Below are positions 21,368 through 45,014 of a stretch of 64,000 bases of DNA, in pieces. Every line of letters begins with the position of its first letter. The first letter of the stretch is position 1. Source of the DNA: Pseudoxanthomonas sangjuensis (GTDB taxonomy: Bacteria > Pseudomonadota > Gammaproteobacteria > Xanthomonadales > Xanthomonadaceae). The position numbers were made by a program, and so were the translations under genes. Below the pieces are notes generated by a model. It made no database searches and was not told where the DNA came from. It saw nothing but the letters and a program-made list of their open reading frames with translations. The DNA is taken from the NCBI RefSeq assembly GCF_010211755.1, contig NZ_PDWR01000006.1, positions 1-64,000 of the forward strand. The letters run 5' to 3'.

Positions 21368-22129
21368 ATGAACATCCGCGTCCTCAACCGGCCGATCGGC
21401 CAAGCGTCGCGATTGCGCGTTGTGCAGAACCATTGCGACGCGCATGGCTGCACCGGCTGCCTGGTGCGGCACCTGGCGATCTGCAGCGCGCTGCCGGCGG
21501 AAGAAGCCGCCGCCCTGGAGCAGCACGCCGGCGACGTGGTGGTGCCCGCCGGGCAGGTGCTGGCGCGCGAAGGCGACACCCGCCGCTACGTATTCACGGT
21601 GACCTCCGGCTCGCTGCGGCGGATCCGTTTCCTGCCCGACGGCCGCCGGCTGGTGGCCGGGTTCCTGATGCCGGGCGACTTCATCGGCTTCAGCGGCGCC
21701 ACCCGCTACCGCCATTCGATCGAGGCGATCGAGGACAGCGTGCTGTGCGCGTTCTCGTCGCAGGACATGCGCGAGCTGTGCGACCGCTACCCGGAGCTGG
21801 AGCGCGAACTGCTGGAGCGCGCCTGCGTGGAACTGGACAACACCCGCAACAACCTGATGTCGCTGGCGCGGATGACGCCGGTCGAGCGCCTCGCCGGGTT
21901 CCTGCTCGACATGGCCGCGCGGCGCAAGCGCCAGGGCCTCGACGAAGCGAGCGTGGCCCTGCCGATGACCCGCGCCGACATCGCCGACTACCTCGGCCTG
22001 ACCGTGGAAACCGTCAGCCGCTGCTTCACCAAGCTGCGCAGCCAGGGGGCCATCGCCACCGACGATCCGCAGCACGTGCGGCTGCTGCAGCCGGAAGCGC
22101 TGGAGGCGCTGGCCGAAGCGCGCGGCTGA
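21368..22129 (+). CDS. fnr: FNR-type Crp family oxygen-sensing regulator
   Basis: Global regulator of low-oxygen genes, 253 residues. N-terminal cysteines 23, 28, 31 and 39 (C-DAHG-CTGC-LVRHLAI-C) plus Cys127 (DSVLCAF) can supply the four ligands of an oxygen-labile [4Fe-4S] cluster, though the spacing differs slightly from E. coli FNR. A cyclic-nucleotide-fold domain spans about residues 45-160. The C-terminal helix-turn-helix contains GLTVETVSRCFTKL; its ExxSR recognition pattern is that of FNR, which reads TTGAT-N4-ATCAA. Such a site lies between ccoN and cydA in this window. The gene converges with cydC, the last gene of the cco-cyd assembly run. Confidence 0.92.
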   Translation: MNIRVLNRPIGQASRLRVVQNHCDAHGCTGCLVRHLAICSALPAEEAAALEQHAGDVVVPAGQVLAREGDTRRYVFTVTSGSLRRIRFLPDGRRLVAGFLMPGDFIGFSGATRYRHSIEAIEDSVLCAFSSQDMRELCDRYPELERELLERACVELDNTRNNLMSLARMTPVERLAGFLLDMAARRKRQGLDEASVALPMTRADIADYLGLTVETVSRCFTKLRSQGAIATDDPQHVRLLQPEALEALAEARG

Positions 22130-30980: not shown

Positions 30981-31267
30981 TGCGGGGGCAGGCGCTGGTC
31001 GCGGCCGACCGCGCGCAGCAGGATCCATGTGAACAGGCTGGACGCCGCGGTCGCCAGCCAGAAAACGAAGAAACCCAGCGTGTAGCCGAGTTCGCGGGTG
31101 ATCTGCAGCTGCGGGAAGGTGATGTCGCGCAGTTCCAGCGGATCGATGAAGGCGAAGAAGACCATGGTGCAGACGCCGGCGCTGAAGAAGCTCGGCCACA
31201 GGATCGCGCCGATCCGGCGTACGCGCGGACCGGCGTCGTCGAGGGGAGGTTGGCGCGGAACGTTCAT
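30977..31267 (-). CDS. Small two-helix membrane protein of the cco operon
   Basis: A 96-residue protein with two membrane helices (IGAILWPSFFSAGVCTMVFFAFI; GYTLGFFVFWLATAASSLFTWIL) separated by DPLELRDITFPQLQIT. Genes of this kind are found between ccoP and ccoG in xanthomonads but have no named function; some resemble the short CcoM/CcoH-like accessory subunits in size only. The start overlaps the ccoP stop, and the stop overlaps the ccoG start, each by 4 nt (ATGA), so it is translated as part of the operon. A structural or assembly role in the cbb3 oxidase is an inference. Confidence 0.8.
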   Translation of the reverse strand: MNVPRQPPLDDAGPRVRRIGAILWPSFFSAGVCTMVFFAFIDPLELRDITFPQLQITRELGYTLGFFVFWLATAASSLFTWILLRAVGRDQRLPPQ

Positions 31268-32196
31268 GGGCCTTGCGCGGTCTCTGGGGCGGGGGGGTGC
31301 GACAGCGACCACACGTAGGCGGCGGCCAGCCGCGAGCGGGTTTCGCCGAGCAGTTCGCGGTGCGCCGGCATCGTGCCCTGGCGGCCCTTGCTGACGGTCT
31401 GCACCAGGCTTTCCTTGCTGTTGCCGTACAGCCAGTAGTCGTCGGTCAGGTCGGGCGCGCCGAGCGCCTGGTTGCCCTTGCCGTCGACGCCGTGGCAGGC
31501 CACGCAGATGCCGTCGTACAGCTTCTTGCCGCGTGCGGCCAGATAGTCGTTATACAGCAGCGACGGGTCGCGCAGGGTGCGCACGTAGGCGACGACGTAG
31601 TCGACCGCGTCCGGACCGCCCATGCCGGCCAGCGCCGTGCCCCACTCGGGCATCACGCCCTGGCGGCCGTCGAGCACGGTGGTCAGGATCGCGTCCGGAT
31701 CGCCGCCCCAGTGCCAGATGTCGTCGGTCAGGTTCGGGTAGCCGATCGCGCCCTGCGCGGTCGAGCCGTGGCAGGTGGCGCAGGTGTTGGCGAAGATCTG
31801 CCGGCCCAGCGCCAGCGCCTTCGGGTTCTGCGCCAGCCTGTCGATCGGCTGGCCGGCGTAGGGGCGGAAGGTCGCCTCGAGTTTCTGCGTGGCCAGCGCC
31901 TTGTCCGCCGCGTGCTCGGCCTTCGACGACCACTTGCCGTAGCCGGCGATGCCGCCGAGGCCGCCGAACCAGAAGATGTAGCCGACGGCGAAGGCGAGGG
32001 TCAGGTAGAACAGGTTGATCCACCAGCGCGGCAGCGGCTTGTTGTATTCGGTCAGGTCGCCGTCCCAGACGTGGCTGGTGTCTTCCGGTGCCGGGTCGCC
32101 CGGGTGCCGCCGCGACGTCCACCACAGCAGGGCGCCGCAACCGGCCAGGTTGATCACGACCAGCACGATGACGAACCATGTCCAGCCGGTACTCAT
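31264..32196 (-). CDS. ccoP: cbb3 oxidase subunit III, diheme cytochrome c
   Basis: Electron-accepting subunit of the cbb3 oxidase, 310 residues. Two N-terminal membrane helices (FVIVLVVINLAGCGALLWW; INLFYLTLAFAVGYIFWFGG) enclose a loop with YNKPLPRWW, the usual CcoP motif. Two c-type heme sites follow: CATCH (Cys139, Cys142, His143) and CVACH (Cys231, Cys234, His235), with axial methionines in VMPEWG and TMPAH. Start ATG 32196 overlaps the ccoQ stop by 4 nt. Complete and typical. Confidence 0.96.
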   Translation of the reverse strand: MSTGWTWFVIVLVVINLAGCGALLWWTSRRHPGDPAPEDTSHVWDGDLTEYNKPLPRWWINLFYLTLAFAVGYIFWFGGLGGIAGYGKWSSKAEHAADKALATQKLEATFRPYAGQPIDRLAQNPKALALGRQIFANTCATCHGSTAQGAIGYPNLTDDIWHWGGDPDAILTTVLDGRQGVMPEWGTALAGMGGPDAVDYVVAYVRTLRDPSLLYNDYLAARGKKLYDGICVACHGVDGKGNQALGAPDLTDDYWLYGNSKESLVQTVSKGRQGTMPAHRELLGETRSRLAAAYVWSLSHPPAPETAQGP

Positions 32197-32344: not shown

Positions 32345-32968
32345 TCAGCCCCCCTTCGGCGCGTGCTTGCCCAGGCCCTGCAGGTAGGCCACCACCGCGT
32401 CCAGTTCGGTCTTGCCCTGCACGTCGGCCTGCGCCTGCTCGATCTGCGCGTCGCTGTACGGGTCGCCCAGCGCCTGCAGCCCGCGCATCCGCTTCGCCAC
32501 CGTGGCGCCGTCGACCGGGTTGTCGGCCAGCCACGGGAAGCCGGGCATGTTCGATTCGGGCACCACGTCGCGCGGGTTGATCAGGTGCACGCGGTGCCAG
32601 TCGTCGGAATAGCGCCCGCCGACCCGCGCCAGGTCCGGCCCGGTGCGCTTGCTGCCCCACTGGAACGGGCGGTCGTACACCGATTCGCCGGCCAGCGAGT
32701 AGTGGCCGTAGCGCTCGCTCTCGAAGCGCAGCGTGCGCACCATCTGCGAATGGCAGTTGTAGCAGCCCTCGCGCACGTACACGTCGCGCCCGGCCAGCTG
32801 CAGTGCCGGGTACGGTTCGACCCCGGGCAGCGGCTCGATCGCCTCGGCCTGGAACATCAGCGGCACGATCTCGGCCAGGCCGCCGAACGAGACCGCGGCG
32901 GCGATCAGCACCGCCATCAGCCCGACGTTGCGCTCGATCTTCTCGTGGGAGTTGTTGGATTCGCTCAT
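32345..32968 (-). CDS. ccoO: cbb3 oxidase subunit II, monoheme cytochrome c
   Basis: Membrane-bound monoheme c subunit passing electrons to CcoN. 207 residues: single N-terminal helix ([23 protein letters not shown]), the heme site GCYNCH (Cys69, Cys72, His73) in the conserved [15 protein letters not shown], the [19 protein letters not shown] motif and the axial Met in [10 protein letters not shown]. Start ATG 32968 gives [14 protein letters not shown]. The ccoN stop lies 24 nt upstream. Confidence 0.97.
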
Positions 32969-32992: not shown

Positions 32993-34429
32993 TCAGGCGC
33001 GGGCTTCGGAAGCATCGGGAACCAGCACCGGCTGCGTCGCCGCGCTGCCGGCGGCGTAGGTGCGCCACACGTTCCACGCCATCAGGCACATGCCGCTCAG
33101 CACCAGCAGGCCGCCGCCGAGGCGGATCAGGTAGTACGGGTAGGTCGCGTTGAGCGCCTCGACGAAGCTGTAGGTCAGCGTGCCGTCGGCGTTGGTCGCG
33201 CGCCACATCAGGCCCTGCATCACCCCGGCAATCCACATCGAGGCGATGTAGAACACCACGCCGACGGTGTGCAGCCAGAAGTGCGTGTCGATGGCCTTGA
33301 CCGAGTACATGCGCTCGCGGCCCAGCAGGCGCGGCAGCAGCGCGTAGATCGCGCCGATCGAGATCATCGCCACCCAGCCCAGCGCGCCGGCGTGCACGTG
33401 GCCCACGGTCCAGTCGGTGTAGTGGCTGAGCGAGTTGACCGTCTTGATCGACATCATCGGCCCCTCGAACGTGCTCATCATGTAGAACGACAGCGACACG
33501 ATCAGGAACTTCAGGATCGGGTCGGTGCGCAGCTTGTGCCACACCCCCGACAGGGTCAGGATGCCGTTGATCGCGCCGCCCCAGGACGGCGCCAGCAGGA
33601 TCAGCGAGAACACCATGCCCAGCGACTGCGCCCAGTCCGGCAGCGCGGTGTAGTGCAGGTGGTGCGGGCCGGCCCACATGTACACGGCGATCAGCGCCCA
33701 GAAGTGCACGATCGACAGGCGGTACGAGTAGATCGGCCGCTGCGCCTGCTTGGGCACGAAGTAGTACATCATCCCGAGGAAGCCGGCGGTCAGGAAGAAG
33801 CCGACCGCGTTGTGCCCGTACCACCACTGCACCATCGCGTCGACGGCGCCGCTGTACACCGGGTAGGACTTGAACGCCCCGACCGGGATCGAGATGTTGT
33901 TGACGATGTGCAGCAGGGCCACGGCGATGATGTAGGCGCCGTAGAACCAGTTGGCCACGTAGATGTGCTTGACCTTGCGGATGGCGATGGTGCCGAAGAA
34001 CAGCACCGCGTAGGCGACCCAGACCACCGCGATCAGGATGTCGATCGGCCACTCCAGCTCGGCGTATTCCTTGCCCTGGGTGTAGCCCAGCGGCAGGGTC
34101 ACCGCGGCGGCGACGATGACCGCCTGCCAGCCCCAGAACACGAACGCCGCCAGCTTGTCCGAGATCAGCCGCACGTGGCTGGTGCGCTGCACGACGTGCA
34201 GGCTGGTGGCGAACAGCGCGCTGCCGCCGAAGGCGAAGATCACCGCGTTGGTGTGCAGCGGGCGCAGCCGGCCGTAGCTCAGCCACGGCAGGTCGAAGTT
34301 CAGGGCCGGCCAGTACAGCTGGGCGGCGATCAGCACCCCGACCAGCATGCCGACGATGCCCCAGACCACGGTCATCACGGCGAACTGGCGCACCACCTTG
34401 TCGTTGTAGGTCTCTCCGGCGCCTTGCAT
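32993..34429 (-). CDS. ccoN: cbb3 oxidase catalytic subunit I
   Basis: Catalytic heme-copper subunit with high oxygen affinity, 478 residues and 12 membrane helices. Motifs: [12 protein letters not shown] (low-spin heme ligand), [24 protein letters not shown] (CuB His and Tyr region), and [16 protein letters not shown], the C-family signature. Start ATG 34429 ([16 protein letters not shown]) is chosen because GGGAG lies 8 nt before it and [11 protein letters not shown] is where family members begin; ATG 34465 is possible. First gene of an eleven-gene run ending with cydC. A perfect FNR box is centred 67 nt upstream. Confidence 0.96.
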
Positions 34430-34453
34430 GCGCGCTTCTCCCGCGGCTGAGAT

Positions 34454-34538
34454 GGCGCGAAGCATAGGGCCGGAGCCGCCCGTTTGCCATTGATTCAGAT
34501 CAAGGACCCGCGCCCCCCCTTGGGGGATCATTCGCGCG
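34454..34538. promoter_or_regulatory. Shared FNR box with divergent promoters for cco and cyd
   Basis: TTGATTCAGATCAA (34490-34503) is a perfect FNR palindrome, TTGAT-N4-ATCAA. To the left, TATGCT on the minus strand (34461-34466) can serve as -10 for ccoN with a start point near 34454, about -42 from the site centre. To the right, GATCAT (34526-34531) can serve as -10 for cydA with a start point near 34538, exactly -41.5. Class II activation in both directions from one site is thus possible. The box itself is certain; the start points are inferred. Confidence 0.85.
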
Positions 34539-34617
34539 GGCCGGCCGCCCGTGGCCGGTTGCCGCGGGGCGGTTGCGGGAACAGAATCGCCCGGCGCCGA
34601 GCCGAAGGAGTCCCGCC

Positions 34618-36216
34618 ATGCCGGACATGACCGTCGTCGAGCTGTCGCGCCTGCAGTTCGCGCTGACCGCGCTGTACCACTTCCTGTTCGTGCCGCTGAC
34701 CCTGGGCCTGTCCTTCATGATCGCGATCATGGAGAGCGTCTACGTGATGACCGGGCGCGACGTGTGGCGGCGGATGACCCTGTTCTGGGGCGCGCTGTTC
34801 GGGGTCAACTTCGCCATGGGCGTGGCCACCGGCATCGTCATGGAGTTCCAGTTCGGCACCAACTGGTCGTACTACAGCCACTATGTCGGCGACATCTTCG
34901 GCGCGCCGCTGGCGATCGAGGGGCTGATGGCGTTCTTCCTCGAGGCCACCTTCATCGGCCTGTTCTTCTTCGGCTGGAGCCGGCTGTCGAAGGTGCAGCA
35001 CCTGGCGGTGACCTGGCTGACCGCGCTGGGCGCGAACTTCTCGGCGCTGTGGATCCTGATCGCCAACGGCTGGATGCAGAACCCGGTCGGCGCGGTGTTC
35101 AACCCGGACACCATGCGCATGGAGGTCGGCGACTTCATGGCGGTGCTGTTCAACCCGGTGGCGCAGAGCAAGTTCGTGCACACGGTCAGCGCCGGCTACG
35201 TGTGCGGCGCGGTGTTCGTGATGGCGATCAGCGCCTTCTACCTGCTGCGCGGGCGCCATGCCGACCTCGCCAAGCGCTCGATGGCGGTGGCCGCCAGCTT
35301 CGGCCTGGCCGCGTCGCTGAGCGTGGTGGTGCTGGGCGACGAGAGCGGCTACGTCACCGGCGAGAACCAGAAGATGAAGCTGGCGGCGATCGAGGCGATG
35401 TGGGAAACCGAGCCGGCGCCGGCAGGCTTCAACCTGTTCGCGCTGCCCGACCAGGAGACCCGCAGCAACCGCGCGCAGGTGCACGTGCCGTGGGTCATGG
35501 GCCTGATCGGCACGCGTTCGCTGAACACCGAGATGCCGGGCATCGACAAGCTGGTGCAGCGCGCCGAGCAGCGCATCCGCAACGGCCAGCAGGCCTACGC
35601 GGCGCTGCAGGTGATGCGTGCGGAAAAAAGCGGCGAGTTCAACGAATCGGCGAGGATCGCCTTCAGCGAAAACTGGCGCGACATGGGCCACGCGCTGCTG
35701 CTGAAGAAGTACCGCGACGACATCGGCAACGCGACCGACGAGGAGATCGCGAAGGCCGCGTGGGACACGGTGCCGCAGGTCGCGCCGCTGTTCTGGCTGT
35801 TCCGGCTGATGGTGCTGCTGGGCTTCTACTTCATCGCCTTCTTCGCGGTCGCGTTCTGGCTGGCGACCAGGCAGCGGCTGGACAGGCACCGCTGGTTCCT
35901 GAAGCTGGCGTTCTGGAGCCTGCTGCTGCCGTGGGTGTCGATCGAGGCCGGCTGGCTGATCGCCGAGTACGGGCGCCAGCCATGGATCATCGACGGCGTG
36001 CTGCCGACCTTCCTCGCCGCGTCCGGGCTGAGCCTGTCGCAGGTGGTGATCAGCCTGGTCGGCTTCGTGGTGGTGTACACGGTGCTGGCGGTGGTCGAGG
36101 TCTGGCTGCTGCGCAGGCTGGTGCTGAAGGGGCCGGACGAAGTCGCCGGCGCGGTCCACCCCAACGACACGCCTGTCGACGGCGGCGGCGCGCCGCTGGC
36201 GCGGGCCGGCGCCTGA
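34618..36216 (+). CDS. cydA: Cytochrome bd quinol oxidase subunit I
   Basis: Catalytic subunit binding hemes b558, b595 and d; oxidises quinol at very low oxygen without proton pumping. 532 residues. Start ATG 34618 has AAGGAG 7 nt before it. Features: [26 protein letters not shown] with the heme His, [13 protein letters not shown] in the late helices, and a long Q loop (about 340 to 400, around [15 protein letters not shown]), the L-type arrangement as in E. coli. Met and His ligands (in KSKFVHT region) are present. Followed by cydB (15 nt) and cydX. Confidence 0.96.
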
Positions 36217-36231
36217 GCGGAGGACGAGACG

Positions 36232-37386
36232 ATGGACGCAAGCATGATTCCCCTCGACTACGCCACGCTGCGCCTGGTCTGGTGGCTGCTGCTCGGCATC
36301 CTGCTGATCGGCTTCGCGGTGATGGACGGCTTCGACCTCGGCGTCGCCGCGCTGCTGCCGTGGGTGGCGCGCAGCGATTCCGAGCGCCGCGTGGTGCTGA
36401 ACGTGATCGGCCCGGTGTGGGAAGGCAACCAGGTCTGGCTGATCCTCGGCGGCGGCGCGATCTTCGCCGCGTTCCCGGCGCTGTACGCGGTCAGCTTCTC
36501 CGGCTTCTACCTGGCGATGTGCCTGATCCTGCTGGCGCTGATCCTGCGCCCGGTCGGCTTCAAGTTCCGCAGCAAGGTCGCCGACCCGCGCTGGCGCGCG
36601 CTGTGGGACTGGGCGCTGTTCGTCGGCGGCGCGGTGCCGGCGCTGGTGTTCGGCGTGGCGATGGGCAACGTGCTGCTCGGCGTGCCGTTCCACTTCGACG
36701 CGGACCTGCGCCCGGTCTACAGCGGCGGCTTCTTCGGCCTGCTGACCCCGTTCGCGGTGCTGTGCGGGCTGGTCAGCGTGGCGATGCTGGTCACCCACGG
36801 CGCTGGCATGCTGGCGCTGAAGACCGAGGGCGCCATCGCCGGCCGCGCGCGCCGCTACGGCAGCGTCGCCGCGGTCGTCGCCGCGCTGCTGTTCGCGCTG
36901 GCGGGCGCGTGGGTGGTGCTGGGCCTGCCCGGTTATGCCGTGGTCGGCGCGCTGGATCCGGCCGGGCCGTCGAATCCGCTGAACAAGCAGGTGGCCATCG
37001 AGGCCGGCGCGTGGCTGGCCAACTACAAGGCGATGCCGTGGACCGCGCTGTTCCCGCTGCTCGGCATCGGCGGCGCGCTGCTGGCGTCGGCGCTGCTGTA
37101 CGGCGGCCGCGCCGGCTGGGCCTTCATCGCCTCGGCATTGTCGATCGCCGGGATCATCCTGACCGAAGGCCTGACGGTGTTTCCGTTCCTGCTGCCGTCG
37201 TCGATCGATCCGCAGTCCAGCCTCACATTGTGGGACGCTTCGTCCAGCCACATGACGCTGTTCATCATGCTGCTGGCGGTGCTGGTGTTCCTGCCGATCG
37301 TGCTGGCCTACACCGCGTGGGTGTTCCGCGTGCTGCGCGGCAAGGTCGGCGACGCCGGCCTGAAGCAGAACCCCAACGCCTACTGA
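36232..37386 (+). CDS. cydB: Cytochrome bd quinol oxidase subunit II
   Basis: Second large subunit of bd oxidase, 384 residues, eight to nine membrane helices. Family motifs are [16 protein letters not shown] near residue 28, [23 protein letters not shown] near residue 62, [10 protein letters not shown], and the closing [12 protein letters not shown] and [12 protein letters not shown]. Start ATG 36232 follows GGAGGACGAG. The spacing to cydA (15 nt) and to cydX (12 nt) shows a cydABX operon. Confidence 0.96.
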
Positions 37387-38099: not shown

Positions 38100-38145
38100 C
38101 CATTATCTTGTCGGTGCCTTAATTGTCGGTTTGCAAGGGGAACTT

Positions 38146-39984
38146 ATGGGGAGCAAGTACATGGTTCGGTGGATTGCGCCGGTAATCTTGTTGGGCGTTC
38201 TGGGGGCGGCCGAAGCCCAGGACATCAAGGCGATCAATCAGGAGTACGCCCGCCATATCAAGTCCGCCGAGGCGATAGGTGCATTGGGCAATGACCTGTT
38301 CGGCGATCTGACGAACCTGTACACCGGCAGCACGGAATTCGCGGTCACCGACGTCAGTCTCCCCGGCAACTCGGCCCTGCCGGTTGCGGTCAGCCGCCGA
38401 TTCCAGGTACAGCCACGCGATGGACTTTATTCCCAAGGCCGATTCGCCGACTGGGAACTGGACCTGCCGTACTTGTACGGCATCTTCGCCCGGAAAACTT
38501 TGAGTTCCGTCGGTTGGCAGGTTTCCACTTCGACGCCCGATGCGCGCTGTTCGGTAACGGATAAGTATGTGGCAGCGCCGCCGGAGGTGCCGGCAGATGG
38601 CGCGGCTGCGGGAAATTACTTCTGGGCCGAAGAATACTGGTCCGGCAACAGCCTGCACCTGCCCGGCGGCGGTGATCAGGAAATGCTGGTGTTGACTTCG
38701 GCGAATCCACACCGGCCCACCGATGGCGCCACCTATCGCTGGGTCACGTCGGGGCAATGGTTCTTTTCCTGCCTGTCGGCCACGGCCAACGGCATTGTCG
38801 GCGAAGCCTTTCTGGCACGCAGTCCGGAAGGATGGATTTATCGATTCGACCACGTCTCGCGTCGACGCACATCCACCCTGAAGAAGCCATTGGCCGGGTT
38901 GGGGACGCTGTCGCTGCAATCCGCCACGGCCGGCGGGCCCGATATACAGCCCATGGCCTCGAACGAGGCCAATCTTCAGCGCGAGGAAATCCAGATTCTG
39001 CCGACCCGCGTCGAAGACCGCTTCGGCAACTGGGTTACCTATACCTACGATGCGAACAACCCGGGGCGGTTGACGAAGATCCAGGCCAGCGACGGTCGCC
39101 AGCTCGACCTGACCTACAACGCATCCGGCTACATCGCCACGGTAACTGCCGGTACGCGCACCTGGACTTACGCCTATTCCGGCAGCGGTACGAACATCGG
39201 GCTGAGTTCCGTCGCCTTGCCGGATGGCAGTGCCTGGAGCCTAAACATGGCCGACGTGCGCAGTGCCAGCATCCAGTACAACTCGGAATACGCAACCTGC
39301 GAGAGTCCAGGGACATTGATGGGGCATGCCGGCACCGCGACAATGACGCATCCTTCCGGCGCAGTGGGCACCTTCGCGTTCGCGATCAAACGCCATGGCC
39401 GCTCCTATGTCGACAAGTTCTGCCTGTATGCCGGGTCAGGTTACAGCGGCCCGTATGCGCAATATCCGCAGACGTTCGATGTGGTGGCCTTGGCCAGCAA
39501 GCAGATCAGCGGCCCCGGTCTGACAACGGCGACATGGAATTACAGCTATGGTCCGGCCAACGCCAGTTGGGACGAAGACTGCCCCACGCCGACAAGCTGT
39601 CCGCGGACCCGGACCGTCACCGTGACCGGTCCGGAGGACTGGGTCCGCCACACCTTCGGCAACAAGTGGGCCGACGACGAAGGCAAGCTGCTGAAGGTGG
39701 AACGGGGTGCCAACGCCACTTCCATCCTCCGGGTGGAGAACAGGACTTATCAGCTCAACGCATCGGGCCAGTTGTACCCGGCACTGATCGGGGAAAGCCC
39801 GAACCTGCGTGGGGACGGCACGGGGCAGCGGCATGCGCCGGTCAGGCAGACGATCGTCACCCAGCAAGGCCGAACCTTCACCTGGCAGGTCGCCGCCACC
39901 TGCGGCAGCAACGGGACGACGCTGTGCTTCGATCAGTTCGCCCGGCCGACGAAGGTGGTGAAGAGTAGTGCGGCAGCGCCATGA
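38146..39984 (+). CDS. Secreted Rhs/YD-repeat protein, N-terminal partner
   Basis: A 612-residue protein with a Sec signal peptide (MVRWIAPVILLGVLGAAEAQ within the first 25 residues), a domain of about 280 residues of unknown fold containing several cysteines (CSVTDKY, FSCLSATA, CESPGT, CLYAGSGY), and YD-repeat-like segments (VTYTYDANNPGRLTKIQASD, LTYNASGYIATVTAGTRTWTY). It resembles the leading part of an Rhs shell rather than a complete one: no core-associated DPxG end is present. ATG 38146 follows AAGGGG. A second, larger Rhs gene with its own signal peptide starts 73 nt after the stop, so the two probably act together outside the cytoplasm. Confidence 0.75.
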   Translation: MGSKYMVRWIAPVILLGVLGAAEAQDIKAINQEYARHIKSAEAIGALGNDLFGDLTNLYTGSTEFAVTDVSLPGNSALPVAVSRRFQVQPRDGLYSQGRFADWELDLPYLYGIFARKTLSSVGWQVSTSTPDARCSVTDKYVAAPPEVPADGAAAGNYFWAEEYWSGNSLHLPGGGDQEMLVLTSANPHRPTDGATYRWVTSGQWFFSCLSATANGIVGEAFLARSPEGWIYRFDHVSRRRTSTLKKPLAGLGTLSLQSATAGGPDIQPMASNEANLQREEIQILPTRVEDRFGNWVTYTYDANNPGRLTKIQASDGRQLDLTYNASGYIATVTAGTRTWTYAYSGSGTNIGLSSVALPDGSAWSLNMADVRSASIQYNSEYATCESPGTLMGHAGTATMTHPSGAVGTFAFAIKRHGRSYVDKFCLYAGSGYSGPYAQYPQTFDVVALASKQISGPGLTTATWNYSYGPANASWDEDCPTPTSCPRTRTVTVTGPEDWVRHTFGNKWADDEGKLLKVERGANATSILRVENRTYQLNASGQLYPALIGESPNLRGDGTGQRHAPVRQTIVTQQGRTFTWQVAATCGSNGTTLCFDQFARPTKVVKSSAAAP

Positions 39985-40057
39985 GGCGGTCAGCAGGAGT
40001 GATGGCGTAAGGCGGGTCGAGCGTTAGTCGTCGGGGATAAGGACACGGGGAGTGCGT

Positions 40058-43000
40058 ATGCGTTTTCGGGGCAACAAATGGTTCTTGGCGCTGGTGCTGG
40101 GCATATTGCTGCAGCCGGCGTGGGTGCAGGCGCAAACTGCACCGGAGACGGACGCGGTCGCGCAGCCGATGGCCTGCATCGATTGCGGCGATCCCGATGA
40201 AGACGATGCCGCCTTCGTGGACCAATCGGTGCCGGCCAGTCTGCAGACTGGGCAGACGGCGACCGTAACGATTCGGATGCAGAACACCGGCAACACGACG
40301 TGGAGGTCGAGTTCCGGATACAACCTGGTTCCTGTCAGCCCACAGATCGGCACGACATGGGGTGTGAGCCAGATCGCGTCCGGCACGATTTATGCCAACC
40401 AGACAGCGACGTTCAGTTTCTCTATCACCGCGCCGGCGACGGCAGGAACCTACAACTTCCAGTGGCAGATGTCGCATAGCGGTTCGTGGTTTGGCGTGCC
40501 TACTGTCAATGTCGCCATCCTGGTGACCGCGCCAGTCAGTCCGCCACCGGAACTGCCGCCATCGCCGAACTACAGCCGCACCGAGACAATTACCTACCAC
40601 GACAACACTGCCAAGTGGGTGCTGGGCCAGACTGCCAGCGTGACCTGCACGGCGGCGGTGCCTACCAGCACCGCCTGCAATGGCGATGTCGTCTCGTCGG
40701 CGACCTACGACACGACTTACGCGCTGCCGCTGACCCAGTCGGCGTTCGGCAAGCTGCAGCAGACTCTGACCTACGACACTGCCTCCGCGGTAAGCACCGG
40801 CCAGCGCGGCACGCTGAAGACGGTCAAGGACGGCAACAACAACGTCACCACGCTGACCAACTGGAAGCGCGGCATTCCGCAGACGATCAAGTATCCCATC
40901 ACCCCCGAGTCGCCGACCGGCGCGACCGAGTCGGCGGTGGTCAACGACAACGGCTGGATCACCTCGGTCACCGACGAGAACGGCTACAAGACCTGCTACG
41001 GCTACGATGTGATGGGCCGGATCAGCCAGGTCACCTATCCGTCCGAGGCCACGGCTGGCGCCTGCGATACCAGCACCTGGGCGGCAACCACCCAGGTGTT
41101 CGAGCCGGTGGCCAGCACCGAGTACGGCATTGCCGCCGGGCACTGGCGGCAGACCGTCAGCACCGGCAACGGCAAGAAGATCAGCTACTTCGACGCGCTG
41201 TGGCGGCCGCAGGTGGTGCGCGAGTACGACGCGGGCAACGTGGCCGGCACCCAGCGCTTCCAGCGCTTCACCTACGACCATGAGGGACGCACCACCTTCG
41301 CCGCGTACCCGGGCACGACCGATGCGCTGAGCACCGGCACCTGGACCGAGTACGACGCGCTGGGCCGGGTCACGTCGGTATCGCAGGACAGCGAGCAGGG
41401 CCTGCTGACCGCGACCACGGCGTATCTGAGCGGTTTCCAGACCCTGGTCATCAATCCGCGTGGCGCGCAGACCGTTACCGCTTATCAGGCCTACGACCAG
41501 CCGGGCGCGGATTGGCCAGTAGCGATCGCGCACCCGCAGGGTGCCTATACCCACATCACCCGCGACCCGTTCGGCAAGCCGACCCGGATCCGGCGCAGCA
41601 ACAGCAGCAGCCCGACCGGCGGCACGGTGGCGCTGAACCGGGACTACGCCTACAACGCCAACCAGGAGCTGTGTCGCGCGGTGGAACCGGAGACCGGCGC
41701 CACGCTGATGGGCTACGACGGGGCGGGCAACCTGAAGTGGAGCGCGGCGGGGCTGGGCAGCACACAGGCCTGCGAGACCGCCGGCACCTCGGCCAACGTC
41801 GCCCCCCGCCGCGTGGACCGCACCTACGATGCCCGCAACCGGCTCAAGACGCTGGTGTTCCCGGATGGGCTGGGCAACCAGAGCTGGACCTATACCCCGG
41901 ACGGCTTGCCGGCCAGCGTCACCGCCTACAACGCGGCCGGCAACACCGTGCCGGTGGTCACCAACTACAGCTACAACAAGCGCCGCCTGCTGACCCGGGA
42001 GACGCTGGTCTACAGCGACGGCGGGGTCAACTGGCCGTACAACTACGCCTACAACGCCAACGGCCACCTGGCCAACAACAACTGGCACGGGCTGACCATC
42101 GACTATGCCCCGAACGCGCTGGGCCAGCCGACCAAGGTCGGCAGCTACGCCAGCGGGGTCAGCTACTACCCGAACGGGGCGGTGAAGCAGTTCACCTACG
42201 GCAACGGCATCGTGCACACGATGACCCAGAACGCGCGGCAGCTGCCGGCGCGCAGCCTCGACTGCATCGTGGCCGGCTGCACGGCCGCGGCGGACAAGCG
42301 GCTGGACCTGAGCTACAGCTTCGACAAGAACGCCAACGTCAGCCAGATCGTCGACGGCATCGACGGCCGGCAGACCCGGGGCATGAGCTACGACGGGCTG
42401 GACCGGCTGACCCAGACCACCAGCAACATGTTCGGCACGGCCGGCTACAGCTACGACGTGCTGGACAACCTGACCCAGGTGAATGTCGGTGGCGGCAGCA
42501 AGGCGCGCAACCACTACTACTGCTACGACACGAACTGGCGGCTGGGCAACGTCAAGACCGGCAGTTGCGCCGGGGCCACGGTGATCGGGCTGGGCTACGA
42601 CGTGCAGGGCAACCTGGCCAACAAGAATGGCACCCTGTACAGCTTCGACTACGGCAACCGGCTGCGCAGCGTGGGTGGGACGGCCAATGCCTACGTCTAC
42701 GACGGGCTGGGGCGTCGGGTGTCGGATGCGGTCAACGGGGTGGCCAAGCGCAGCCAGTACACCCAGGGCGGGCAACTGGTGATGGTGGGCGACAACCGCG
42801 CCGGCAAGGTGACCGAATACTTCTACCTGGCCGGCAGCCTGGTGGCGTGGCGGGAGCGGAACACGACGACGAACGTGTACACGACCCGCTACCAACACAC
42901 CGACGCGCTGGGCACGCCGATCGCAGAGACGGACGCGAACAAGGCGTTCATGAACAAGTACGAGTACGAGCCGTACGGACAGCAGATCAACGGCACGGCG

Positions 43001-43765
43001 AAGGACGGGCCGGGCTACACCGGGCATGTGCAGGATGCGGCGACCGGGATGACTTACATGCAACAGCGCTACATGGATCCGGTGCTGGGTGTGTTCCTGA
43101 GTGTTGATCCGGTGACGGCGTACAGCAACCCAGTCGGCGCGTTCAATCGGTACTTGTACGCATCGAACAATCCGTACGCTTTTATCGATCCAGATGGGAG
43201 GCAATCACAACGTCAAGATGAATATGAGGAGCGCCAAAGAAAGAACTTCTGCGGCGTGGGTGGGTGCAATGAGGGCACGTCCTATCGGAGCGCCACCTCG
43301 GGTTTGTTTCGGCGGTACAAGACGCCAAAGAGTCAGAGGAAGCTTATCGAGAGTGTGGGAGGCGACACCGAACTATTGGAGATGGCACAGGAGTCGCACG
43401 AGAATTTCGTCACCACGCTGATAACAATCGTCGCTGGCGGAGGTATTGCTGGCGCAGGAAGAGGAGGGACGACAACTCTCTATCGGGCGGTAAGTGAAGC
43501 GGAAGCGGCATCGATTCGTGCCACTGGTAGATTTTCAATTGGACCAAACTCTCTCGAAGGCAAGTGGTTGGCGGAATCGTTAAAGCACGCAAAAGAGTGG
43601 GGCGATAAGTTGAATGGAAAGGGAATAAGCAAGCTGTTGGAAATTAAGCTTCCTAAGTCTATTGCAGACAAACTTTTTCGTGTCGAAAAGTTGGACGGCG
43701 TTGGGCCTGCTCGATATGCCGAACTTAGCCAGCTTGAGCAAGCTGCAATTCGGGAGTTGCCGTGA
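40058..43765 (+). CDS. Secreted Rhs protein with candidate C-terminal toxin domain
   Basis: A 1235-residue protein. Layout: Sec signal peptide (residues 1-27, ending WVQAQ); Cys pair CIDCGDPDEDD; an Ig-like fold similar to the NBR1 central domain (SLQTGQTATVTIRMQNTGNTTW, about 45-150); Pro linker; about 20 YD repeats (about 170-980); and the Rhs core end DPVLGVFLSVDPVTAY...NRYLYASNNPYAFIDPDG near residue 1040. The remaining 190 residues are variable in type and AT-richer. Its end contains LYRAVSEAEAASIRATGRF, GKWLAESLKHAKEWG and ILEIKLPKSIADKLF-like elements, reminiscent by eye of ADP-ribosyltransferase-type toxins; this is uncertain. No PAAR or VgrG is near. ATG 40058 has GGGGAG before it. 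Confidence 0.8.
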   Translation: MRFRGNKWFLALVLGILLQPAWVQAQTAPETDAVAQPMACIDCGDPDEDDAAFVDQSVPASLQTGQTATVTIRMQNTGNTTWRSSSGYNLVPVSPQIGTTWGVSQIASGTIYANQTATFSFSITAPATAGTYNFQWQMSHSGSWFGVPTVNVAILVTAPVSPPPELPPSPNYSRTETITYHDNTAKWVLGQTASVTCTAAVPTSTACNGDVVSSATYDTTYALPLTQSAFGKLQQTLTYDTASAVSTGQRGTLKTVKDGNNNVTTLTNWKRGIPQTIKYPITPESPTGATESAVVNDNGWITSVTDENGYKTCYGYDVMGRISQVTYPSEATAGACDTSTWAATTQVFEPVASTEYGIAAGHWRQTVSTGNGKKISYFDALWRPQVVREYDAGNVAGTQRFQRFTYDHEGRTTFAAYPGTTDALSTGTWTEYDALGRVTSVSQDSEQGLLTATTAYLSGFQTLVINPRGAQTVTAYQAYDQPGADWPVAIAHPQGAYTHITRDPFGKPTRIRRSNSSSPTGGTVALNRDYAYNANQELCRAVEPETGATLMGYDGAGNLKWSAAGLGSTQACETAGTSANVAPRRVDRTYDARNRLKTLVFPDGLGNQSWTYTPDGLPASVTAYNAAGNTVPVVTNYSYNKRRLLTRETLVYSDGGVNWPYNYAYNANGHLANNNWHGLTIDYAPNALGQPTKVGSYASGVSYYPNGAVKQFTYGNGIVHTMTQNARQLPARSLDCIVAGCTAAADKRLDLSYSFDKNANVSQIVDGIDGRQTRGMSYDGLDRLTQTTSNMFGTAGYSYDVLDNLTQVNVGGGSKARNHYYCYDTNWRLGNVKTGSCAGATVIGLGYDVQGNLANKNGTLYSFDYGNRLRSVGGTANAYVYDGLGRRVSDAVNGVAKRSQYTQGGQLVMVGDNRAGKVTEYFYLAGSLVAWRERNTTTNVYTTRYQHTDALGTPIAETDANKAFMNKYEYEPYGQQINGTAKDGPGYTGHVQDAATGMTYMQQRYMDPVLGVFLSVDPVTAYSNPVGAFNRYLYASNNPYAFIDPDGRQSQRQDEYEERQRKNFCGVGGCNEGTSYRSATSGLFRRYKTPKSQRKLIESVGGDTELLEMAQESHENFVTTLITIVAGGGIAGAGRGGTTTLYRAVSEAEAASIRATGRFSIGPNSLEGKWLAESLKHAKEWGDKLNGKGISKLLEIKLPKSIADKLFRVEKLDGVGPARYAELSQLEQAAIRELP

Positions 43766-44315: not shown

Positions 44316-44849
44316 GTGGTGCGGACCTATCTCCGCAACCGAACGCTAGGCGGGACATATTTCTTCACGGTCAACCTGGCCGAGCGCCAGGGCAACACCC
44401 TCCTGACGGACAATATCGATCTTCTGCGGGAAGCCTTCCGGAGAACGCTGGCGGAGCATCCGGTTGCCATGGACGCCATCGTCGTCCTGCCCGACCACCT
44501 GCACTGCCTGTGGCGCATGCCGGAAGGAGACGACAATTACGCCAGTCGCTGGCGATTGATCAAGGCGGGATTCTCGCGGGCCATGGCCAAGGGCGAGCGG
44601 CAATCGGCCAGCCGGTTGCGCAAGGGCGAACGCGGCATCTGGCAACGTCGGTATTGGGAACACCTCATCCGCGACGACGCCGATTACGCGCGGCACGTGG
44701 ATTACATTCATTACAACCCGGTCAAGCACGGCTACGTGGCGCAGGCGAGGGATTGGCCTTATTCGACGTTTCCTCGCTGGGTGGAACGGGGCGTCTACAC
44801 CGAAGATTGGGGTGTGGGCAACGACGTGCGTGATATGAACTGGGAGTGA
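44316..44849 (+). CDS. REP-associated tyrosine transposase (RAYT, Y1_Tnp)
   Basis: Single-strand DNA endonuclease of the IS200/IS605-related family that recognises REP hairpins. 177 residues. Metal-binding HUH motif at His61-Leu-His63 (VVLPDHLHCLW); the C-terminal signature HVDYIHYNPVKHGYV contains the likely catalytic Tyr130. Typical RAYT elements WQRRYWEHLIRDDADY precede it. GTG 44316 is used as start (GTG 44319 is equally possible); no ATG lies in frame near. Intact in appearance, so it could still mobilise REPs in the genome. Confidence 0.9.
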   Translation: MVRTYLRNRTLGGTYFFTVNLAERQGNTLLTDNIDLLREAFRRTLAEHPVAMDAIVVLPDHLHCLWRMPEGDDNYASRWRLIKAGFSRAMAKGERQSASRLRKGERGIWQRRYWEHLIRDDADYARHVDYIHYNPVKHGYVAQARDWPYSTFPRWVERGVYTEDWGVGNDVRDMNWE

Positions 44850-44909: not shown

Positions 44910-45014
44910 TTCGCGTGGATACTCGGCGTGGGCCTGGCCACCAGCTTCGCCATCCTCAGCGGCATGTGGTACGAGATGCGCGAGTCGGACCGCGCCCTGC
45001 GCGACGGGAAGTAG
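44910..45014 (+). pseudogene. cydX: Partial second copy of cydX
   Basis: 34 codons that match CydX from its fourth residue on: FAWILGVGLATSFAILSGMW, then the same YEMRESDRALRDG and K, stop TAG 45012-45014. Over the aligned 92 nt before the indel there are four base changes relative to 37408-37499, and the end lacks three bases present in the intact copy. The start codon and ribosome site are missing because the REP sits in their place, so it is not expected to be translated in full. It forms a direct repeat with intact cydX, 7.4 kb apart. Confidence 0.88.

Follow-up and report, generated by a model that had tools for sequence, protein, structure and literature searches.

One FNR-type box between divergent cbb3 and bd oxidase operons of Pseudoxanthomonas sangjuensis as a predicted class II site for both promoters

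A single FNR-type box, TTGATTCAGATCAA, lies between the divergently oriented ccoN and cydA genes of Pseudoxanthomonas sangjuensis, at a spacing from predicted -10 elements on either side that is characteristic of FNR class II activation. We believe it probable that this box is the site of one FNR dimer, most likely formed by the product of an fnr-like gene in the same window, and that two divergent promoters, one for the cbb3 oxidase and one for cytochrome bd, use the box as their class II activator site. At the level of sequence we regard the finding as real and well supported. Throughout, "the window" is the whole stretch of DNA that was analysed, 64,000 nucleotides in length.

Results

The window carries a micro-oxic respiration cluster (Table 1). 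Profile searches cover ccoN, cydA and fnr, while the other genes of the cluster were named by eye from their open reading frames. The two genes that the initial annotation had placed on either side of the box, ccoN and cydA, are confirmed by matches above cut-off to TIGR00780 and PF01654, respectively; cydA falls below the cut-offs of two NCBIfam cydA models. The cluster also holds ABC-exporter genes read as cydDC, together with ccoGHIS-like genes. Named relatives of the CydA protein, including those of Xanthomonas and Stenotrophomonas, share 68-71% identity with it and are among the closest matches listed. Behind the cyd operon, a 98-nt partial copy of the cydX-like gene, 96% identical and without a start, is found at about 44910-45007. 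Between the gene and its partial copy lie a gene region with RHS repeats (38131-43765) and, at 44316-44849, an ORF resembling a REP-type transposase, and the arrangement looks like an insertion or a duplication.

Table 1. Positions of the genes, promoter elements and FNR-type box in the window
Feature	Position	Strand	Basis or remark
ccoN, cbb3 oxidase subunit I	32993..34429	-	TIGR00780, 760.9 bits (cut-off 583.15); ATG at 34429
ccoO-like gene, downstream of ccoN	32345..32968	-	ORF, named by eye
ccoP-like gene	31264..32196	-	ORF with two CxxCH motifs, named by eye
cydA, cytochrome bd subunit I	34618..36216	+	PF01654, 572.4 bits, above cut-off
cydB-like gene	36232..37386	+	ORF, named by eye
cydX-like small subunit, 39 aa	37399..37518	+	Translation, named by eye
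FnrL/FixK-like FNR gene	21368..22129	+	FnrL best NCBIfam match; Cys pattern; occurrence in genus
Shared FNR-type box, TTGATTCAGATCAA	34490..34503	.	Perfect match; perfect box in 23/23 divergent ccoN-cydA loci
Predicted -10 of cco operon, TATGCT	34461..34466	-	Gap 23 nt; start ~34454
Predicted -10 of cyd operon, GATCAT	34526..34531	+	Gap 22 nt; start ~34538
CAGAAT, perhaps left over from a separate cyd promoter like that of sister genomes (TAGAAT)	34582..34587	+	Start ~34594

The box has no mismatches and perfectly palindromic arms. No other perfect TTGAT-N4-ATCAA occurs in the window, and this one sits in the 188-bp spacer between the start codons of ccoN and cydA. The genome (3.29 Mb) contains nine perfect boxes, compared with none for a reversed control pattern, and about 0.14 would be expected genome-wide from the base composition of the window. 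Weaker boxes, with up to two mismatches, are also more common in the window than expected (16 matches vs 4.5). Measured from the cco start predicted by TATGCT, the box centre lies at -42.5, and from the cyd start predicted by GATCAT it lies at -41.5, within activating distance of both. The initial annotation had described a perfect FNR site here, centred about 42 nt from the cco start and 41.5 nt from the cyd start with the same two hexamers as -10 elements, and our computed distances agree with it.

When the letters of each 70-nt flank were shuffled, a hexamer with at least four of six matches to TATAAT, an A at position 2 and a T at position 6 arose at a gap of 22 or 23 with a frequency of 0.0003 in the cyd flank and 0.003 in the cco flank. 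GATCAT is itself a weak -10, matching TATAAT at four of six positions, and a consensus promoter scan of 34400-34650 found no sigma70-type -35/-10 pair. For comparison within the genome we used a looser definition (A at position 2, T at position 6, at least three of six matches, gap 21-23) without a shuffle control; by this definition all nine perfect boxes have a -10-like hexamer on at least one side, and the box between ccoN and cydA is the only one flanked on both. Some of the other boxes lie, by eye, near genes for a nirK-like nitrite reductase and for cytochrome b561-like and hemerythrin-like proteins. A perfect box between GAPDH-like and OmpW-like genes (C28:22622-22635) is flanked by a hexamer at gap 22 and, on its opposite side, by TAGAAT at gap 19.

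From the box, its spacing and conservation, and the co-occurrence of genes described below, we infer binding, activation, alternation and the direction of change as follows. When oxygen is low, FNR in its iron-sulphur form would bind the box, and bound FNR would then recruit RNA polymerase either leftwards to TATGCT, for expression of the cbb3 oxidase, or rightwards to GATCAT, for expression of cytochrome bd. With only 84 bp between the predicted starts, polymerases at the two promoters should overlap at the box. Alternation is therefore likelier than simultaneous occupancy, and the two promoters would probably fire one at a time. The symmetry of the box and the nearly equal spacing on its two sides might suggest instead that both polymerases are present at once, with one dimer fully co-activating both operons. 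We consider this quite improbable, as starts this close imply overlapping upstream contacts, and El-Robh and Busby are said to have reported in 2002 that two polymerases do not fit at such a CRP-served divergent pair.

The cco half of this arrangement is conserved throughout the genus. Among the 38 genus genomes, 33 have a cydA match at E <= 1e-200, and in 23 of these 33 ccoN is divergent from and adjoins cydA, with a spacing of 163-227 bp. Every one of the 23 spacers holds exactly one perfect box, 52-60 nt from the ccoN start, and on its cco side a -10-like hexamer follows at a gap of 22 or 23. Judged from the predicted -10, which puts the box centre at -42.5 in the window, the cco promoter has FNR class II spacing in 23 of 23 genomes. 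The 38 genomes contain 29 ccoN genes in total, and all six that do not adjoin cydA also have a perfect box upstream, most of them with a -10-like hexamer at gap 21-22 by eye. Upstream of cydA, a perfect box is present in 31 of the 33 genomes, the exceptions being G063, which has none, and G304, where the box has one mismatch. One genome (G297, locus L134) carries two perfect FNR boxes upstream of its single cydA, with 39 nt between them.

Which FNR acts at the box is a separate matter. The product of the fnr-like gene in the window belongs to the CRP/FNR family and matches the FnrL, FixK and Fnr models at 147, 126.7 and 109.3 bits, all below the respective cut-offs of 300, 300 and 228, and we call it FNR-like only. 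In E. coli FNR, three cysteines lie in the N-terminal part and another near residue 122; the window product has the cysteine pattern of an oxygen-sensing FNR, with Cys 28, 31 and 39 (spacing CX2CX7C) and Cys 127. Of the 32 other genus genomes with cydA, 31 have an ortholog (49-76% identity), and G063, the sole cydA-bearing genome without one, is also without a box at cydA. A further genome, G307, has the ortholog and no cydA match at the threshold used. This is the gene that the initial annotation had named as the likely FNR, and its occurrence across the genus makes it the leading candidate, though a second FNR encoded in the genome (C22:55524-56276, locus L011) could also bind.

The second FNR has an FNR-like placement of cysteines, with Anr-like spacing (CX2CX5C) and Cys 127, and by eye its recognition helix is similar to that of the window product. 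Four genomes have a ccoN box and no ortholog of the window fnr gene, and all four have relatives of the second FNR, close in G174, G063 and G139 and distant in G301. Because of these four, another FNR can probably serve such a cco box, and for the same reason we slightly lowered our confidence in the shared-site reading as a whole and raised the standing of the second FNR. Even so, it seems rather unlikely that the second FNR is the main binder of this box, or that both FNRs act there in place of the window product alone, as the second FNR is missing from four divergent genomes (G284, G300, G253 and G206) that retain both the box and the gene order, and G063 has the second FNR yet no box at cydA. 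The window fnr gene therefore stays, in our view, the better candidate regulator, most of all for cyd. The second FNR gene itself is separated by about 11 kb from a perfect FNR box that precedes the nirK-like nitrite reductase gene.

The cyd half was compared across the family in 89 further cydA upstream regions, comprising 75 fetched regions, two of them from genus members with a second cydA-like gene, and 14 other loci. A perfect box lies nearby in 52 of the 89 (40/75 within 120 nt, and 12/14), leaving 37 without one. With near-copies collapsed, 18 non-redundant family promoters have a nearby box and no adjacent ccoN; the hexamer is found at gap 22 in 16 of them and at gap 23 in one more, and 16 hexamers at one gap were reached in none of 2000 shuffles. 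Within the best 80 named-genome loci, a perfect box lies within 400 nt of cydA in 22 by our own count, and box and hexamer occur together in all seven named Xanthomonas and Stenotrophomonas loci. No ccoN match was found near cydA among these 80, and by eye no ccoN was seen adjoining cydA outside the genus among the matches listed. Spacing of the FNR class II type is thus widespread among the cydA genes of the family. The class II hexamer is less clear in genus members with cydA alone: eight genomes, seven of them non-redundant, have cydA with a perfect box and no adjacent ccoN, and a gap-22 hexamer is found in four of the seven.

Where ccoN and cydA are divergent, a cyd-side hexamer at the class II distance is found in one genome of the 23, that of the window; the cyd side of the other 22 has no such hexamer, and the window genome is the only one with this gene order to have both class II hexamers at the box. 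There the predicted cyd -10, with the box centre at -41.5, has the spacing of an FNR class II promoter. The class II distance that the initial annotation had assigned to both sides is thus supported by comparison, yet for cyd the hexamer occurs in just 1/23 divergent genomes. Two further divergent genomes, G218 and G310, have a cyd-side TCTAGT at gap 22, which was left uncounted because its position 2 is not A; both also have TACAAT near the start codon.

A different promoter element is found in most of the sister genomes. The palindrome GCGAC-N5-GTC(G/A)C lies between the box and cydA in 20 of the other 22 divergent genomes, and also in G191. In the 20 divergent genomes it precedes a TAGAAT by 22-24 nt, and TAGAAT is in turn 25-31 nt from the start codon. 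In these genomes cyd would seem to be transcribed from a promoter of its own further downstream, one with a RegA/RoxR-like site. Compared with the RegR recognition form given in PMC5506826, GNGRCRTTNNGNCGC, the palindrome agrees at both half-sites but not in the middle, and RegA-type sites are described there as degenerate. A phased role of the FNR box at the TAGAAT promoter is unlikely, because the distance from box centre to TAGAAT start ranges from 81 to 139 across the sister genomes.

The regulator that would go with this site can also be traced. A response regulator of the RegA/PrrA/ActR-like kind (137-158 bits against NF033791, cut-off 250), whose gene in G117 sits beside a kinase gene with a GGIGNPF motif, has relatives of 75-100% identity in 21 of the 38 genus genomes. 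Palindrome and regulator coincide in 21/21, against 0/12 other cydA-bearing genomes, the window's included (Fisher p = 2.8e-9, with kinship ignored); G304 was scored as without the regulator despite a distant paralog (51%), and G218 and G310 have neither regulator nor palindrome. Nine genus members have two RegA-like regulators, and in G117 (L145 and L146) the second regulator and its kinase adjoin a SURF1-like gene, named by eye. A loose GCGNC-N5-GNCGC, distinct from the strict palindrome, recurs about 170 nt upstream of the cydA start in loci of genus g29, including L150, L156 and L157.

In the window genome, neither a RegA-like regulator nor the palindrome was found, and CAGAAT stands 30 nt from the ATG where the sisters have TAGAAT, with no GCGAC-N5-GTCGC upstream of it. 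It might be argued that cyd is transcribed from this downstream CAGAAT, that the box is a class II site for cco only, and that GATCAT is a chance match, since 20 sister genomes are without a cyd hexamer at the class II gap and their TAGAAT sits about as far from the ATG as CAGAAT does here. We think this unlikely. Both the palindrome that precedes TAGAAT in the sisters and the RegA-like regulator are missing from the window genome, while GATCAT at gap 22 is rarely matched in shuffled flanks and is the same type of hexamer as in the cydA promoters of the family.

Outside the genus, presence of the regulator does not preclude FNR class II spacing at cyd. Each of the 40 fetched family genomes that have a perfect box close to cyd keeps the regulator, at 73-80% identity, and the strict palindrome was found in none of these 40. 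The palindrome does occur outside the genus in four places, three without a perfect box (G221, G233 and L031 in G050) and one with a perfect box (L040 in G001), and all four of these genomes have the regulator. In everything examined, then, the palindrome implies the regulator, and the reverse does not hold. We therefore rejected a general rule in which cyd comes under FNR when the RegA-like regulator is lost, given the 40/40 genomes that retain this regulator. In the CydA tree, the window genome and the pair G218/G310 stand apart, so the three regulator-less divergent genomes occupy two places, and the window genome clusters, at the modest support of 82/80, with genomes in which cydA lacks a neighbouring ccoN. 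It alone among the three is a clear class II case.

Discussion

The simplest reading of these comparisons would be that class II spacing to an FNR box is the earlier condition of cyd in the family, that cyd came under a RegA-type promoter in most of the genus members with divergent ccoN and cydA, and that the window genome either retained the earlier arrangement or returned to it. Because the cyd half of the window resembles the cyd promoters of other family genera, it is more likely to be an old promoter that was kept than a new one. We also offer, tentatively and as a proposal that we rather doubt, a broader interpretation in which the cyd operon of the genus has swapped between redox inputs: genomes bearing the regulator would transcribe cyd from its own RegA-type promoter and leave the box to cco, and the window genome would keep a class II -10 for cyd, so that one FNR dimer is shared and promoter competition could set the ratio of cbb3 to bd oxidase. 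Our estimate of this swap was lowered by the co-occurrence of the regulator and a nearby cyd box in all 40 of the non-genus genomes, and the swap rests on few independent events and does not hold as a rule across the family. A swap of cyd between FNR and a RegA-type promoter within one genus would be the most interesting part of the story.

If the shared-site reading is correct, the window provides a compact natural case in which a single activator dimer links two high-affinity oxidases, and in which the split between cbb3 and bd could depend on polymerase competition at one site. Sister species with a second, RegA-type cyd promoter would then make two wirings of the same operon pair directly comparable. 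A search of the literature, judged from titles and the opening parts of abstracts, found no FNR box common to cco and cyd.

FNR-type control of cyd is known in other proteobacteria. RegBA, PrrBA and RoxSR systems control cyd, cio and cco, according to PMC5506826. The sister species resemble those systems in that their cyd operon has a palindrome similar to RegA-type sites and that they encode a RegA-like regulator, next to a GGIGNPF kinase, unlike the window genome, which has neither palindrome nor regulator. FnrL acts at ccoNOQP in other proteobacteria, as described in PMC4263372. FnrL and related FNRs share with the present case the FNR-type control of cco or cyd oxidases, and differ from it in that a single box is common to both operons here. 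The spacing has close parallels in E. coli, where, among 23 promoters that FNR activates directly and whose starts are known, PMC3688515 places the site at -41.5 +/- 4 in 19, and at -41.5 in narG, dmsA and nirB. The box described here is likewise centred near -41.5; among the rows listed in that source, each class II site serves one operon, whereas here it would serve two. For the arrangement as a whole, the parallel is with CRP: PMC3105977, which cites the work of El-Robh and Busby, lists 11 natural divergent pairs in E. coli served by a single CRP site, and the principle of one activator site serving divergent promoters is therefore already known. In both cases, one dimer of a CRP/FNR-family protein at one site is proposed for both promoters. 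The present case would be an FNR and oxidase version of this principle, in which, unlike the E. coli CRP pairs, the site is of the FNR type, the signal would be oxygen, the genes encode two terminal oxidases, and the spacing is class II on both sides.
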